Part shown: positions 2,467 to 8,407 of the stretch, piece after piece
Layout: each line of letters opens with the position of its first letter
How positions within the stretch are numbered: the first letter of the stretch is position 1
Source: Gemmatimonadota bacterium
Lineage (GTDB): Bacteria > Gemmatimonadota > Gemmatimonadetes > Gemmatimonadales > Gemmatimonadaceae
DNA length: 42,249 nucleotides
Direction: 5' to 3'
Assembly: GCA_031127225.1 (NCBI GenBank)
Contig: JARIEV010000014.1
Span: forward strand, 1 to 42,249
Notes under the pieces: generated by a model
Told to the model about the DNA's origin: nothing
Databases searched by the model: none
What the model saw: the letters and a program-made list of their open reading frames with translations, nothing else
Position numbers and translations under genes: made by a program

Positions 2467-3348
2467 ATGCCGCGTGGCGACGAGATTGGGAAGCTCCATC
2501 TGATGGATGACGACATGGATGATGTGGGCTACGGCCGCTCGTCGTACGACGAAGAGGACGAGGACGGCTACGGCCTTCCCTCCGAAGACGGCGACTCCCT
2601 CTGGGACAGCGCGGACGACGACGATGATGACGACGAGGATGATGACGACGAGGGCGACAGCTTCGAGGACGAGCTGATCGAAGAGGACGAAGACGAGGAC
2701 GACATCTTCAGCCGCCCACGCCGTGGACCCGGTCGCCCGCCCAAGAATCCGGGCGCGCCCAAGCAGTCCAAGGCCAAGGCACCCAAAGCGGAGCCCAAGG
2801 CCGAACCGACGGTCGAATCGCCAGCGATCGTGTCCACTCCGGCTCCGGCACCCGTCGCAACGACGCCTGCCCCGGTGAAAGAACCCAAGGCCCCGAAGGC
2901 ACCCAAGGCCCCGAAGGAGCCCAAGACCGTGGCGCCTGCACCGGCCGTTGCGGCGGCGCCCGTGAAGGCGGCACCGGCCAAGAAGGCGGCACCGGCCAAG
3001 AAAGCGGCACCGGCCAAGAAGGCGGCACCGACCAAGAAGGCGGCACCGGCCAAGAAGGCGGCGCCGGCCAAGAAGGCGGCGCCGGCCAAGAAGGCGGCAC
3101 CGGCCAAGAAGGCGGCACCGGCCAAGAAGGCGGCACCGGCCAAGAAGGCGGCACCGGCCAAGAAGGCGGCACCGGCCAAGAAGGCGGCGCCGGCCAAGAA
3201 GGCGGCACCGGCCAAGAAGGCGGCACCGGCCAAGAAGGCGGCGCCGACCAAGAAGGCGGCACCGGCCAAGAAGGCGGTGAAGAAAGCGCCTGCGAAACCG
3301 GCCAAGAAAGCCGCGAAGCCCGCCAAGAAGGGCGCGAAGCGCCGGTGA
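2467..3348 (+). CDS. Acidic N-terminus, AT-hook and histone-H1-like AAPAKK repeat protein
   Basis: 293 aa, low complexity. Residues about 14-80 are extremely acidic, with runs of Asp and Glu. Residues 83-93 (RPRRGPGRPPK) resemble an AT-hook DNA-binding motif. Residues about 95-165 are rich in Pro, Ala and Lys with repeated PKAPKA. Then come 17 copies of AAP(A/T)KK and a basic tail ending AKKGAKRR. The start is well set by AGGAGAGGAGG at 2451-2461, five nt before the ATG. The stop overlaps the GTG of the downstream histidine kinase by 4 nt, so the two are probably translationally coupled. The Lys/Ala/Pro tail resembles bacterial H1-like proteins and Pseudomonas AlgP. A nucleoid or DNA-bridging role is inferred. 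The acidic head may mask the basic tail or recruit a partner. No enzymatic domain is visible. Confidence 0.85.
   Translation: MPRGDEIGKLHLMDDDMDDVGYGRSSYDEEDEDGYGLPSEDGDSLWDSADDDDDDDEDDDDEGDSFEDELIEEDEDEDDIFSRPRRGPGRPPKNPGAPKQSKAKAPKAEPKAEPTVESPAIVSTPAPAPVATTPAPVKEPKAPKAPKAPKEPKTVAPAPAVAAAPVKAAPAKKAAPAKKAAPAKKAAPTKKAAPAKKAAPAKKAAPAKKAAPAKKAAPAKKAAPAKKAAPAKKAAPAKKAAPAKKAAPAKKAAPAKKAAPTKKAAPAKKAVKKAPAKPAKKAAKPAKKGAKRR
2968..3273 (+). repeat. 17 tandem 18-bp units encoding AAPAKK
   Basis: In-frame array of 17 units of exactly 18 bp (gcg gcn ccg gcc aag aar), 306 bp in total. Units 4 and 16 carry acc instead of gcc, giving Thr, and a few units differ at a third codon position. Because units are 18 bp, gain or loss would preserve frame and change only tail length. 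The near identity of units suggests recent expansion or homogenisation. Confidence 0.97.
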
Positions 3349-4862
3349 TACCGATCGACGAGCAGCCGCCGTTCGCGCGGCGGCTGCTCGACGCGCTGCC
3401 GCTGACCGTCTGGGCCGTCGATCTTGAGGGACGGATCACGGCGGCGAACAGGGCATGGTCCCGCTTTGCGACCGACAATGGAGCGCCCGGAATCGCCCGT
3501 GAAACGGCGGTGCTCGGGCGCTCCGTGTTCGAACACGTGGCGGACGATGCGTCGCGCGAGCAGACCGAGCGCGCCATGACGTTGCTGCGCGAGCGCCGGG
3601 TCCCCGTGGTGCGCTGGGAGTTCCCGTGCAACTCGCCCAGTGAGGAGCGGGTGTTCCTCATGCAGGTCACCGCCATCGATGACGGCGTAACGATCTCGGG
3701 CTTCGTCTTCTCCACCGTCGACATCACGCCCAGTCATCGCTCCCGCGAGGCCTTGATCAACACCGGGATCGCGCTGGCCGAGGCCATCTCGCTCGACCGC
3801 GTTTACGAGGAAGTCGCGCTGCAGCTGCGTCGCGCCGTCCCCTCCACCGGGTTCGTCATCACCCTCGCCGACGACGACACCGCTGAATTCCGTATCACCC
3901 ATCGGCAGGGCTACGGGACGCACACCAACGGCGAACTCGAGGCCCGGCTGCTGCGCACGTGGCTCGACGCCTTGGCCTCCGGGTACGTCGTTCGGCAGTC
4001 CACCGACATCGGCCTCGAAATCACCGCCCCACTCATCACCGCCGAAGGGGTGCTCGGCGCGATCACCCTCTACGCCGAACCGATCGAATCGGAGCAGGCG
4101 CTTGAAGAGGCCGAGCGGGTGCTGGCCGTGATCGCGGCCCAGACGGCCGTCGCCATCGAGCGCGCCTGGCTGGTCGAACGCGTGGAGCAGAAGCGGCGGC
4201 TCGAAGCCATCGGCGAAGTCGCCGCCGGTGTCGCCCACGAACTGCGCAATCCGCTCTTCGGTATATCCTCCGCGGCGCAGCTGCTCCAGTTTCGCGCCAA
4301 AGACGATCCGGTCGTCGAGCGGAACGTGGGACGCATCCTGCGCGAGGTCGAACGGCTCAGCCAGATGGTCACGTCGCTGCTCGAATTCGGTCGCCCCAAC
4401 GCGGCGCATCTCGTGCCCGCCGATCCGGAAACGGTCTGGGACGACATCCTCGAGGGGGAGCGCGCACGCCTCGAGGCCAAGCTGCTCACGATCCGCCGGC
4501 AGCGCCCCGAACTCGCCGTCCGCAGCCTCATCGATGTCCAGCAGCTCGGGCAGGTCTGCCGGAACATTCTGGCCAACGCCTGCGATGCCGCCCCGGATGG
4601 CTCGGAGCTCATCCTGCACTCGCATCTCTCGCCGGCGGGTGGCTGGCGGTGCCGCCTCACCAACGGTGGTCCGGCCATTCCGCCCGACGTCCTCCCGCAC
4701 GTGTTCGAGTTCTTTTACTCGAACAAGACCGGCGGCACCGGCATCGGTCTCGCCTTGTGCCAGCGCATCATGGACGAGCACGGCGGCACGATCAGCATCG
4801 ACAGCGCCCACGAGTGGGGCACCACGCTGACGCTGACGCTGCCACCAGCCGTGGCCACATGA
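3345..4862 (+). CDS. PAS-GAF sensor histidine kinase
   Basis: 505 aa from a GTG that overlaps the previous stop (GTGA). Residues about 12-130 are a PAS domain, about 135-275 a GAF-like domain, and then a HisKA region has GVAHELRNPLFG with His298. The HATPase domain has N-box NILANACDA (Asn411) and G2 GGTGIGLALC (about 463-472). The G1 box is unusual: NGGPAIP at 440-446 replaces the usual DxGxG, so the Asp that normally contacts adenine is Asn and the second Gly is Ala. No transmembrane segment is seen, so sensing is probably cytoplasmic. The stop overlaps the ATG of the NtrC-type regulator by 4 nt, making this an NtrB/NtrC-like pair. The signal is unknown. Confidence 0.92.
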   Translation: MIPIDEQPPFARRLLDALPLTVWAVDLEGRITAANRAWSRFATDNGAPGIARETAVLGRSVFEHVADDASREQTERAMTLLRERRVPVVRWEFPCNSPSEERVFLMQVTAIDDGVTISGFVFSTVDITPSHRSREALINTGIALAEAISLDRVYEEVALQLRRAVPSTGFVITLADDDTAEFRITHRQGYGTHTNGELEARLLRTWLDALASGYVVRQSTDIGLEITAPLITAEGVLGAITLYAEPIESEQALEEAERVLAVIAAQTAVAIERAWLVERVEQKRRLEAIGEVAAGVAHELRNPLFGISSAAQLLQFRAKDDPVVERNVGRILREVERLSQMVTSLLEFGRPNAAHLVPADPETVWDDILEGERARLEAKLLTIRRQRPELAVRSLIDVQQLGQVCRNILANACDAAPDGSELILHSHLSPAGGWRCRLTNGGPAIPPDVLPHVFEFFYSNKTGGTGIGLALCQRIMDEHGGTISIDSAHEWGTTLTLTLPPAVAT

Positions 4863-6169
4863 CGCTCTCGGTACTGGTCATCGACGACGACGAGTCGGTC
4901 CGCTCCACGCTCGTCGAATTCTTCGAAACCTTCGGGTATACGGCCCGCGGCGCCGCAACCGCGACCGAAGGACGACGCCTCGCCGCCGAACACGCGCCCG
5001 ACGTGGTGCTGCTCGACCTGCGTCTCCCCGACGCCGACGGCATCCGCGCCCTCGAGGCACTCCGCGCCGACGACCCGGAGCTCGCCGTCATCGTGCTCAC
5101 CGGATTCGCCGACGTGCGCACCGCCGTGCAGGCCATGCAGCACGGCGCGGCCGATCTGCTCGAGAAACCGGTGGACCTTGAGCGGCTGGCCGCGGCCGTC
5201 GCGCGTGCCGCCGAACGGGGCCGTCTCCGACAGGAAGTCGCCGTCTTGCGGGCGCAAGGACGCGCCGACGCCACATCGCCCGCGATGGCACCGACGGTGG
5301 CCGACCTCATTGATCTGGCCGCCCGGAATCCGGACGCGCCGATCCTGCTGCAAGGAGAGACCGGTACGGGAAAGGGCTACATCGCGCGGCAGATCCACGA
5401 CCGGTCAGTCCGGCGAGCCTCCCCCTTCGTGGAAATCAACTGCGCCTCCCTCTCCGCCACCTTCTTCGAGAGCGAGCTGTTCGGTCACGAACGAGGGGCC
5501 TTTACGGATGCGCGCCAGGCCAAACACGGGCTGTTGGAAGTGGCCGGTGAGGGCACTGTTTTTCTGGACGAGATCGCCGAGTTGAGCCCGGAAGTGCAGC
5601 CGCGTCTGCTCAAGGTGCTCGAAGAACGCACCTTTCGGCGCCTCGGCGGCACCACGATGCTCCGCTCCTCAGCGCGCGTCGTGGTCGCCACACACCAGTC
5701 ACTCGCCGGCGCGGTCGCCGAGAAACGGTTCCGGGCCGACCTCTACTACCGTCTCCAGGTGCTCACCATCACGTTGCCGCCGCTTCGCGAGCGGCAGGAC
5801 GAGATCCTCACCATGGCCATGGCGATGCTGCCAAAGGGAGCGTCGCTGAGCACCGGGGCCGAAGACGCGCTCACGCGCTATCGGTGGCCGGGCAACATCC
5901 GCGAACTCAAGAACACGATCTGGCGGGCCGCCATTCTTGCGGAGGGGCGCCCGATCGAACCGCTGCATCTGGGACTTCCCGCGCCGACCGACGTAGAGCG
6001 CCCCACCGAACCCGAACAGACTGCCCCGCGGACGCTCGCGGACGCTGAGCGGGAGGTCATTTGCGAAGCCCTGCGCGCCAGCGAGGGCAACCGCACCCAC
6101 GCGGCCCGCCTGCTCGGCATTGCCCGCTCCACCCTGCTCGAGAAGCTCAAGCGCTACGGCATCGACTAG
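4859..6169 (+). CDS. NtrC-family sigma-54 activator, receiver-AAA-Fis HTH
   Basis: 436 aa from the ATG at 4859 (ATGA overlap with the kinase). The receiver domain has DDD at 9-11, Asp53 in LLDLRLPD, Thr81 and Lys103. The AAA+ domain has Walker A GETGTGKG (166-173), Walker B VFLDEI (234-239) and a C-terminal part with YRWPGNIREL. The sigma-54 contact loop reads GAFTDA (213-218) rather than the usual GAFTGA. The C-terminus is a Fis-type helix-turn-helix (about 395-435, GNRTHAARLLGIARSTL). The family binds upstream enhancers and remodels sigma-54 holoenzyme. Targets are not evident: I found no clear -24/-12 promoter in the window. Confidence 0.95.
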   Translation: MTLSVLVIDDDESVRSTLVEFFETFGYTARGAATATEGRRLAAEHAPDVVLLDLRLPDADGIRALEALRADDPELAVIVLTGFADVRTAVQAMQHGAADLLEKPVDLERLAAAVARAAERGRLRQEVAVLRAQGRADATSPAMAPTVADLIDLAARNPDAPILLQGETGTGKGYIARQIHDRSVRRASPFVEINCASLSATFFESELFGHERGAFTDARQAKHGLLEVAGEGTVFLDEIAELSPEVQPRLLKVLEERTFRRLGGTTMLRSSARVVVATHQSLAGAVAEKRFRADLYYRLQVLTITLPPLRERQDEILTMAMAMLPKGASLSTGAEDALTRYRWPGNIRELKNTIWRAAILAEGRPIEPLHLGLPAPTDVERPTEPEQTAPRTLADAEREVICEALRASEGNRTHAARLLGIARSTLLEKLKRYGID

Positions 6170-6335: not shown

Positions 6336-6749
6336 ATGACCACGCCGGCTGAAGCCCCCAAGTCCGTTCTCATCGTCGAAGACGAGCAGTCCATTCGCGA
6401 CATTCTCGTCGAACTCTTCGATGTCGAGGGGAATGCCGTGAGTTCCGCCGAGTTGCTGCCGGACGCCCTTGAACGCCTGAGGACGCAGCGGTTCGATCTG
6501 GTCGTAACTGACCTCCGGCTGGGTGGGAAGCGTGATGGCGGGCTGCAGGTGATGGCGCTGGCTGGCATGCTGTCGCCCGACGCCATGGTGCTGGTGCTCA
6601 CCGCGTACCCGGATGACTCGAACCGTCAGGCATCGTTCCGGCTCGGGGCCCTCCATTTTCTTGAGAAGCCGGTCGATCTCGCGACCATCGCGCAGCATGC
6701 GTCGACGGTCGGCGTCCGCACCGCCTTCGCATCGGCCGGGCGCGACTGA
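6336..6749 (+). CDS. Single-domain response regulator (receiver only)
   Basis: 137 aa containing only a receiver domain: VEDE at 15-18, phospho-acceptor Asp59 in VVTDLRLGG, Thr89 and Lys111 in FLEKPVD. No output domain follows, so it resembles CheY-like or Spo0F-like phosphate carriers. It lies 166 bp after the NtrC-type gene in the same direction and may be a third acceptor for the two kinases upstream or act in a phosphorelay. The sequence after Lys111 is short (26 residues), with no DNA-binding motif. The upstream gap shows no convincing promoter. Confidence 0.9.
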   Translation: MTTPAEAPKSVLIVEDEQSIRDILVELFDVEGNAVSSAELLPDALERLRTQRFDLVVTDLRLGGKRDGGLQVMALAGMLSPDAMVLVLTAYPDDSNRQASFRLGALHFLEKPVDLATIAQHASTVGVRTAFASAGRD

Positions 6750-7861: not shown

Positions 7862-8407
7862 ATGGCCGAGTCTCCCGTACCGCTCCTGCGCGCTCACGCG
7901 CGCCACGCTCCGTGGAATGCCCGCGGACTCGCAGCGCATGCCGCCGCACTGGTCGATTCTGCCGGCATGAAGCCGACGAACGCGTCGGCGCGCGCCATGC
8001 CCAGCGCGCGCGCGGTGCGCTTTTACGTCGCAAACGGTCTGCTCGACCGTCCGGAAGGTGCCGGGACCGCCGCCACGTACGGCTACCGGCATCTGCTGCA
8101 ACTGCTCGCCATCAAGATCCGTCAGCGCGAAGGCCAGACGCTCGACGCCATCAAGCTGGAGATGCGCGAAGTCACCGGCGACGCACTGGAACGGCGCGTG
8201 GCCGCGTCGCTCGCTCCGGCGCTCGCGTTGCAGATGGAGGCCGGTGCCCCGAAGCAGAACGGCGTCTCGAGCTGGCGGCGCGTCCCGATCGCGGACGGTG
8301 TCGAGTTGCATGTGCGTGACGACTCGCCGGCCGCGCGTGACGACCTGCTCGTGTCACTGCGCGAGATGCTGCGAGGCACGCTCGGCCGCACCGACTTCGG
8401 GACCTGA
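7862..8407 (+). CDS. MerR-family transcriptional regulator
   Basis: 181 aa. Residues about 45-110 match the MerR winged helix: SARAVRFYVANGLLDRP corresponds to the family's RYYxxxGLL helix, followed by YGYRHLLQLLAIKIRQREGQTL-like sequence, where the second wing and recognition helices lie. The N-terminal 40 residues precede the usual start of the family and may be a leader or an over-long call. A later in-frame ATG (about residue 36) is possible. The C-terminus lacks the Cys pattern of metal sensors, so the effector is unknown. A TATATTG-like stretch about 15 nt before the ATG could be a -10 element of a nearly leaderless transcript. Confidence 0.8.
   Translation: MAESPVPLLRAHARHAPWNARGLAAHAAALVDSAGMKPTNASARAMPSARAVRFYVANGLLDRPEGAGTAATYGYRHLLQLLAIKIRQREGQTLDAIKLEMREVTGDALERRVAASLAPALALQMEAGAPKQNGVSSWRRVPIADGVELHVRDDSPAARDDLLVSLREMLRGTLGRTDFGT

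Follow-up and report, generated by a model that had tools for sequence, protein, structure and literature searches.

Why should a histone H1-like protein be encoded within a two-component cluster, directly in front of a sensor kinase? The question is raised by an open reading frame in the 42,249-nucleotide stretch of Gemmatimonadaceae DNA analysed here (the window), which runs on the forward strand from an ATG at 2467 to a stop codon at 3348 and encodes a 293 amino acid long protein. We call this protein ACID, after its acidic head, which is followed by an AT-hook-like motif and a lysine tail. A PAS kinase/receiver-HD pair lies on one side of its gene and an NtrC-type regulator on the other, and all the genes named here are on the forward strand. 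Upstream, domain searches identified the PAS kinase HKa (8-1120, its frame open at the window start), which is a recurrent upstream neighbour, and a receiver and HD-type regulator resembling RpfG (1117-2247). Downstream, domain searches and alignments with relatives define HKb, a 505 amino acid PAS-GAF-HisKA-HATPase kinase with a GTG start (3345-4862), which is the kinase referred to below. It is followed by an NtrC-type response regulator recognised by its domains and a GAFTDA motif (4859-6169), a single-domain response regulator found by domain search (6336-6749) and a MerR-type helix-turn-helix gene (7862-8407; Pfam MerR_1, 29.3 bits at a cut-off of 21.6). As the first-pass annotation of the window had described, the gene lies inside a two-component cluster and overlaps the kinase start by 4 nt, the GTG at 3345 and the ACID stop sharing the letters GTGA. 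In our data this overlap is restricted to the window and its seven closest relatives (G020, G024, G029, G014, G015, G017 and G025); at the non-overlapping loci 1-214 nt separate the ACID stop from the first kinase residue that aligns, and more where only the catalytic part aligns.

The protein consists of two blocks of opposite charge. In the window, the first 95 residues contain 42 Asp/Glu and 8 Lys/Arg and the remainder 57 Lys/Arg and 5 Asp/Glu, giving nearly balanced net charges of -34 and +52. This division is found throughout: over the first 95 residues the net charge ranges from -25 to -43 at all 68 of 68 loci, and over the remainder it is positive at 65. Of the three exceptions, two are genes truncated by contig ends and the third is the frameshifted gene of G029. 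The head proper (2467-2718) contains short conserved spots in alignments A1 and A2 (GYG, SSYD, DSLWDS and D-I/L-F, or, more loosely, GYG, S-Y-D, L-W-D and D-x-F). It is followed by the AT-hook-like motif RRGPGRPPK at residues 85-93 (2719-2745), with a PGRP core where a canonical hook has RGRP. PGRP occurs in all 25 genus loci, and a DNA pattern search for GPGRPPKNPG matched 21 of 395 genomes of the phylum, all in one genus out of 138. In other genera, RGRP, PGRP or VGRP hooks with basic flanks were counted manually in 20 of 43 loci. These counts indicate that the hook is a variable extra of ACID, its GRP form being absent from about half of the other-genus loci. The tail of the window protein comprises 17 AAPAKK/AAPTKK units and owes its regularity to an 18-bp tandem repeat (TRF: 17.4 copies, 95% matches, 2964-3277), and most relatives have KPAA-type tails that are less regular and of other lengths. 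The acidic head, the hook-like motif and the 17-unit basic tail of the earlier description are thus all borne out.

Compared with the window as reference, the heads of 22 same-genus orthologues (G029 and G017 were omitted from the 25 genus loci) gave dN/dS values of 0.06-0.38, which point to purifying selection on the head. Together with the distribution in the family, these values rule out that the frame is an artefact or arose by chance. AlphaFold2, run with 25 sequences, returned a model with a mean pLDDT of 49.5, a pTM of 0.16 and zero secondary structure, which is consistent with disorder and is no proof of it; composition and this low-confidence model together suggest that ACID is disordered. 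NCBIfam yielded zero family matches and Pfam zero families above cut-off; two sub-cut-off Pfam matches, to Plasmodium HRP and to YL1, were discarded as driven by composition. Up to an E-value of 0.1, none of the Pfam models of histones or of bacterial H1-like proteins (Hc1 and Hc2) was matched, and neither a CarD_CdnL_TRCF nor a phasin domain was present. Among open-licence papers, none combined Gemmatimonas with H1-like histones, and the titles listed in further searches contained nothing on this protein. In the single-contig genome G029 (locus L033), a frame change in the ACID tail, which may be real or a sequencing slip, leaves the head frame open into the kinase frame.

A profile of the head (A2) detected ACID in 118 of 140 Gemmatimonadaceae genomes (family membership counted manually from the genome list) and in none of 255 other Gemmatimonadota among the 395 sampled. 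One match per genome was obtained in 115 of the 118; G256, G371 and G383 had two each, at least one of which lay at a contig edge. By these searches, ACID is specific to the Gemmatimonadaceae and mostly single-copy. Eight of the 22 family genomes missed by the profile were inspected: in six the gene preceding the kinase is acidic or lysine-rich (G032, G302, G399, G188, G199 and G270, with only a lysine-rich piece in G399), and in the other two, G011 and G023, a contig end interrupts the locus. Four same-genus genomes yielded no ACID, namely these last two and G003 and G027, which are less than 60% complete. For G001, G025 and G012, a contig break falls within or close to the ACID tail, and the head lies at the edge of another contig. 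In two sister families, approximately 1.5 kb before the MerR homologue at each of 12 loci contained no acidic and lysine-rich gene.

Upstream of the gene, conservation outlines a putative sigma-70-like promoter (2323-2351) composed of TTGACT (2323-2328), a 17-nt spacer and TACTTG (2346-2351). CTTGAC is present in 23 of 23 aligned same-genus upstream regions and TGTA before or at the -10 box in 20 of them. A strict pattern, TTGAC-N17/18-TAnTA, was derived from the genus loci and matched 16 of 23 of these, as well as 12 of 43 loci in other genera, which are its only test; mononucleotide shuffles gave 0.0002-0.0006 matches per locus. In 300-nt stretches downstream of ACID the pattern was found in 0 of 63, which is also the chance expectation. 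The TACTTG of the window itself fails the strict pattern. These results suggest that the genus and part of the family share a conserved sigma-70-like promoter before ACID, and that ACID probably starts its own transcription unit; the 31 of 43 other-genus loci that lack the strict pattern are a point against this explanation. Since the kinase follows closely behind ACID, both are probably read as one message.

For ACID itself, we favour a family-specific, disordered nucleoid protein of the H1/HMGA type with a kinase tied to it, an explanation to which we give about an even chance. The lysine tail, aided by the AT-hook-like motif where there is one (this genus and roughly half of the loci in other genera), would bind DNA loosely, in the manner of the H1 C-terminal tail or the HMGA-like tail of CarD. 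The acidic head, with its few conserved aromatic residues, would keep this binding weak and exchangeable or would contact a partner. The protein would be made from its own promoter, with the kinase directly behind in this genus and in others. The gene, its composition and distribution, the selection on its head, the promoter-like conservation and the linkage are shown by the data; disorder, DNA binding, a role in the nucleoid, masking by the head, co-transcription and any action of the kinase on ACID are inferred. Two points count against this explanation: a GRP hook is absent from about half of the other-genus loci, and HU is present in nine of nine genomes checked, so that a further nucleoid protein would not be required. 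The HU proteins of four genus genomes (L231-L234) end in a short acidic C-terminal tail, e.g., LEDDDNEE, unlike the basic HU tails known from other bacteria.

Several known proteins combine parts of this architecture. HMGA unites AT-hooks and an acidic block in one disordered protein, as ACID would with its AT-hook-like motif; the hooks of HMGA are several and its acidic block is C-terminal, whereas in ACID the acidic block comes first and an H1-like tail is present. The C-terminal tail of histone H1 and the chlamydial proteins Hc1 and Hc2 are similarly lysine-rich, but ACID does not match the corresponding Pfam models. CarD of Myxococcus xanthus possesses an acidic stretch and four AT-hooks and can be replaced in this part by histone H1 or its tail, as described in passages of PMC8156234 and PMC4374960. 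The order of an acidic stretch followed by a hook or hook-like motif and basic sequence is shared with ACID. Unlike CarD with its four RGRP hooks, ACID has no CarD_CdnL_TRCF domain, no more than one or two basic-flanked GRP cores in most loci, and a long lysine tail.

How firmly is the kinase tied to this protein? Kinase orthologues of at least 68% identity are present in 24 of 29 other same-genus genomes, and on genus contigs that reach far enough the ACID orthologue precedes the kinase. At an E-value of 1e-50 or better, the kinase was detected in 48 of 138 family genomes and in 18 of 35 genera. Of 53 kinase loci fetched, G001 and G277 had less than 100 nt upstream; in all 51 readable loci an acidic/lysine-rich gene comes immediately before the kinase, represented by its tail where the contig begins there. 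An automatic tail rule recognised 47 of these, and G087, G112, G270 and G406 have a gene with an acidic head instead; in six (G025, G012, G378, G399, G407 and G413) the tail alone is visible before the contig start. Ten kinases of the 48-genome search were outside the fetched set, and nine of them have, by coordinates, a head 387-778 nt upstream on the same strand. Linkage was observed in 17 of the 18 kinase-bearing genera, which rules out an accident of a single genus; in the eighteenth (g40, G229) ACID and the kinase are on separate contigs. The proposed coupling therefore holds in one direction: the kinase goes with ACID in related genomes, but only the 48 of 138 have this kinase. ACID does not depend on the kinase, because most family members with ACID lack it, including the single-contig, same-genus genome G021.

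The tie of the kinase to its expected regulator is looser. NtrC adjoins the kinase in 23 of 24 loci in a group made up of the genus and G032, which belongs to a different genus, versus 12 of 28 in other genera, indicating that the kinase holds its place by ACID more strictly than by NtrC. Even the phospho-acceptor can be dispensed with. In the window kinase this is H298, in the H-box HELRNP; it is replaced in seven of 34 other kinases aligned with it, which belong to five genera, by Gln (G073 and G403), Asn (G087 and G406) or Arg (G112, G267 and G396). NtrC is the next gene in only one of the seven loci (G073). The His-less kinases are directly behind ACID at loci L116, L123, L125, L133, L152, L246 and L252. 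For the two Asn kinases dN/dS is 0.06 over 397 codons and for the Arg pair G267/G396 it is 0.19, suggesting that a His-less kinase is kept by selection, at least in the Asn pair. The high dS of the two pairs (0.89 and 1.36, respectively) counts against this, and some His-less kinases may be decaying: the kinase match of G073 contains a stop codon, and the frame of G396 is without an N-box. In G205, G173, G279 (g36) and G112 (g33), the kinase frame is reduced to 228-255 residues and aligns only with the catalytic part. Maintenance of the kinase fold without the normal phospho-acceptor is also seen in the Caulobacter pseudo-histidine-kinase DivL, in which Tyr replaces the His, although in another organism and with other partners.

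These data can be read in two ways. The linkage might be inherited gene order only, with no function shared between kinase and ACID, which we regard as a serious possibility at somewhat less than an even chance and which is compatible with ACID as a nucleoid protein. Kinase and MerR distances are correlated (Mantel r 0.60, n=26, 0 of 5000 permutations), and remain so when just the 15 loci of other genera are used (r 0.32, 54 of 5000), which fits a locus that was inherited and lost in places; the neighbouring genes keep their order too, and the possible decay of His-less kinases points the same way. Against it, the kinase keeps ACID in all readable loci and often not NtrC, and kinases without His or sensor domains stay in place, one His-less pair under strong constraint. 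What favours a shared role is that the kinase is tied more closely to ACID than to the regulator expected for it, together with the His-less kinases. Such a role could consist in the kinase fold controlling or reading the chromatin-like ACID by direct contact rather than by phosphotransfer, so that ACID, kinase and MerR form one regulatory module; we consider this quite unlikely. Such a module would account for the persistence of the kinase beside ACID after the loss of NtrC, of sensor domains and even of the His, given the strong purifying selection on one His-less pair.

The composition of ACID also fits binding to polyphosphate or RNA, and the main rival to the nucleoid reading is a role as an organiser of polyphosphate granules similar to AlgP (AlgR3), the KPAA-tailed, H1-like protein of Pseudomonas to which the first-pass annotation had drawn a parallel. 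The tail would bind both polyphosphate and DNA and space the granules along the nucleoid, while the head tunes this activity; we judge it unlikely. Gemmatimonas accumulates polyphosphate, and polyphosphate kinase (PF02503) was detected in 14 of 15 genomes checked. The exception, G239, has ACID and gave no PF02503 match, which speaks against such a role, as does the lack of a polyphosphate gene next to ACID in the labelled loci, where many neighbours are unlabelled. According to passages of PMC9239181, AlgP has a KPAA tail and a net charge of +55, binds DNA and associates with polyphosphate granules, its C-terminus is needed for their even spacing, and its N-terminus is a predicted helical domain of about 124 amino acids. 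The parallel stands for the long tail of lysine/proline/alanine tandem units and fails at the other end: ACID has an acidic head without confident structure, often with an AT-hook-like motif, and no AlgP-type helical N-terminus in its AlphaFold2 model, which at its low confidence is weak evidence. The nearly balanced charges of the window protein also differ from the strongly positive net charge of AlgP. The phasin PhaF belongs to the proteins with a long KPAA-type tail as well, but a PhaF-like role at polyhydroxyalkanoate granules is disfavoured, since PhaC_N, a model that covers only its own kind of synthase, matched none of 15 genomes (with the control recovered in 1 of 14 known genomes) and no phasin match was obtained.

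Viewed from ACID, the constant neighbour is the MerR-type gene and not the kinase. In the genus, the gene after ACID is the kinase at 21 of 23 loci with more than 1.5 kb downstream; the exceptions are G029, where the frame change merges ACID and kinase in ORF calling, and the kinase-free G021. At 39 other-genus loci with enough sequence, ACID is followed by MerR in 18, by the kinase in 12, by an alpha/beta hydrolase in eight and by a single-domain response regulator in one, and MerR lies at most four genes downstream in 37. Among 49 GTDB contigs chosen by MerR alone, which come partly from the same genomes as the first set, ACID is upstream of MerR in 44 and the other five are cut by contig ends. 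Relatives of the two-component genes of the window were sought at the ACID loci of G030 and G034 and none was found. In several genera, a trio of genes resembling TolC/AcrA/AcrB-type efflux components directly precedes ACID in place of two-component genes; this likeness was read from the sequences of L114, and elsewhere (L120, L140, L141 and others) it was matched by gene lengths. Might ACID then be a partner of MerR, its head or tail affecting DNA binding by the regulator, as CarS acts on CarA or CarD at promoters? The steady proximity of the two genes suggests this, and in passages of PMC8156234 the highly acidic antirepressor CarS is described as binding the MerR-family protein CarA. We nevertheless find the idea very doubtful: further genes of the stretch keep their order as well, so that adjacency alone says little, no such gene lies in the roughly 1.5 kb before MerR at the 12 loci of the two sister families, and CarS has an SH3-like fold where the ACID head has no confident structure.

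The model of the first-pass annotation, in which sigma-54 activation over long distances by the kinase and the NtrC-type regulator would exploit DNA shaped by ACID, draws on the adjacency of the three genes in nearly all genus loci and on the presence of RpoN, but it is highly improbable and cannot describe a conserved role, because ACID mostly occurs without the kinase, NtrC often does not adjoin it and the phospho-acceptor His can be lost. At every locus matched by the motif search, the regulator of the window and its orthologues carry GAFTDA instead of GAFTGA. This regulator could itself well act with sigma-54, since one RpoN DNA-binding domain match shows the factor to be present in the genome and the GAFTDA variant is listed as tolerated in Desulfovibrio in passages of PMC4641369.

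In bacteria, proteins with H1-like tails have a scattered occurrence, and few of them have been explained. By its architecture, we infer that ACID belongs functionally with the known H1/HMGA-like disordered DNA-binding proteins of bacteria, to which it would add a nearly family-wide, single-copy member that joins an H1-like tail to an acidic head and has no Pfam or NCBIfam family. The Gemmatimonadaceae include cultured Gemmatimonas strains. A kinase that can lose its phospho-acceptor His and yet stay at the ACID locus would make this family a place to ask whether signalling controls chromatin-like proteins in bacteria.
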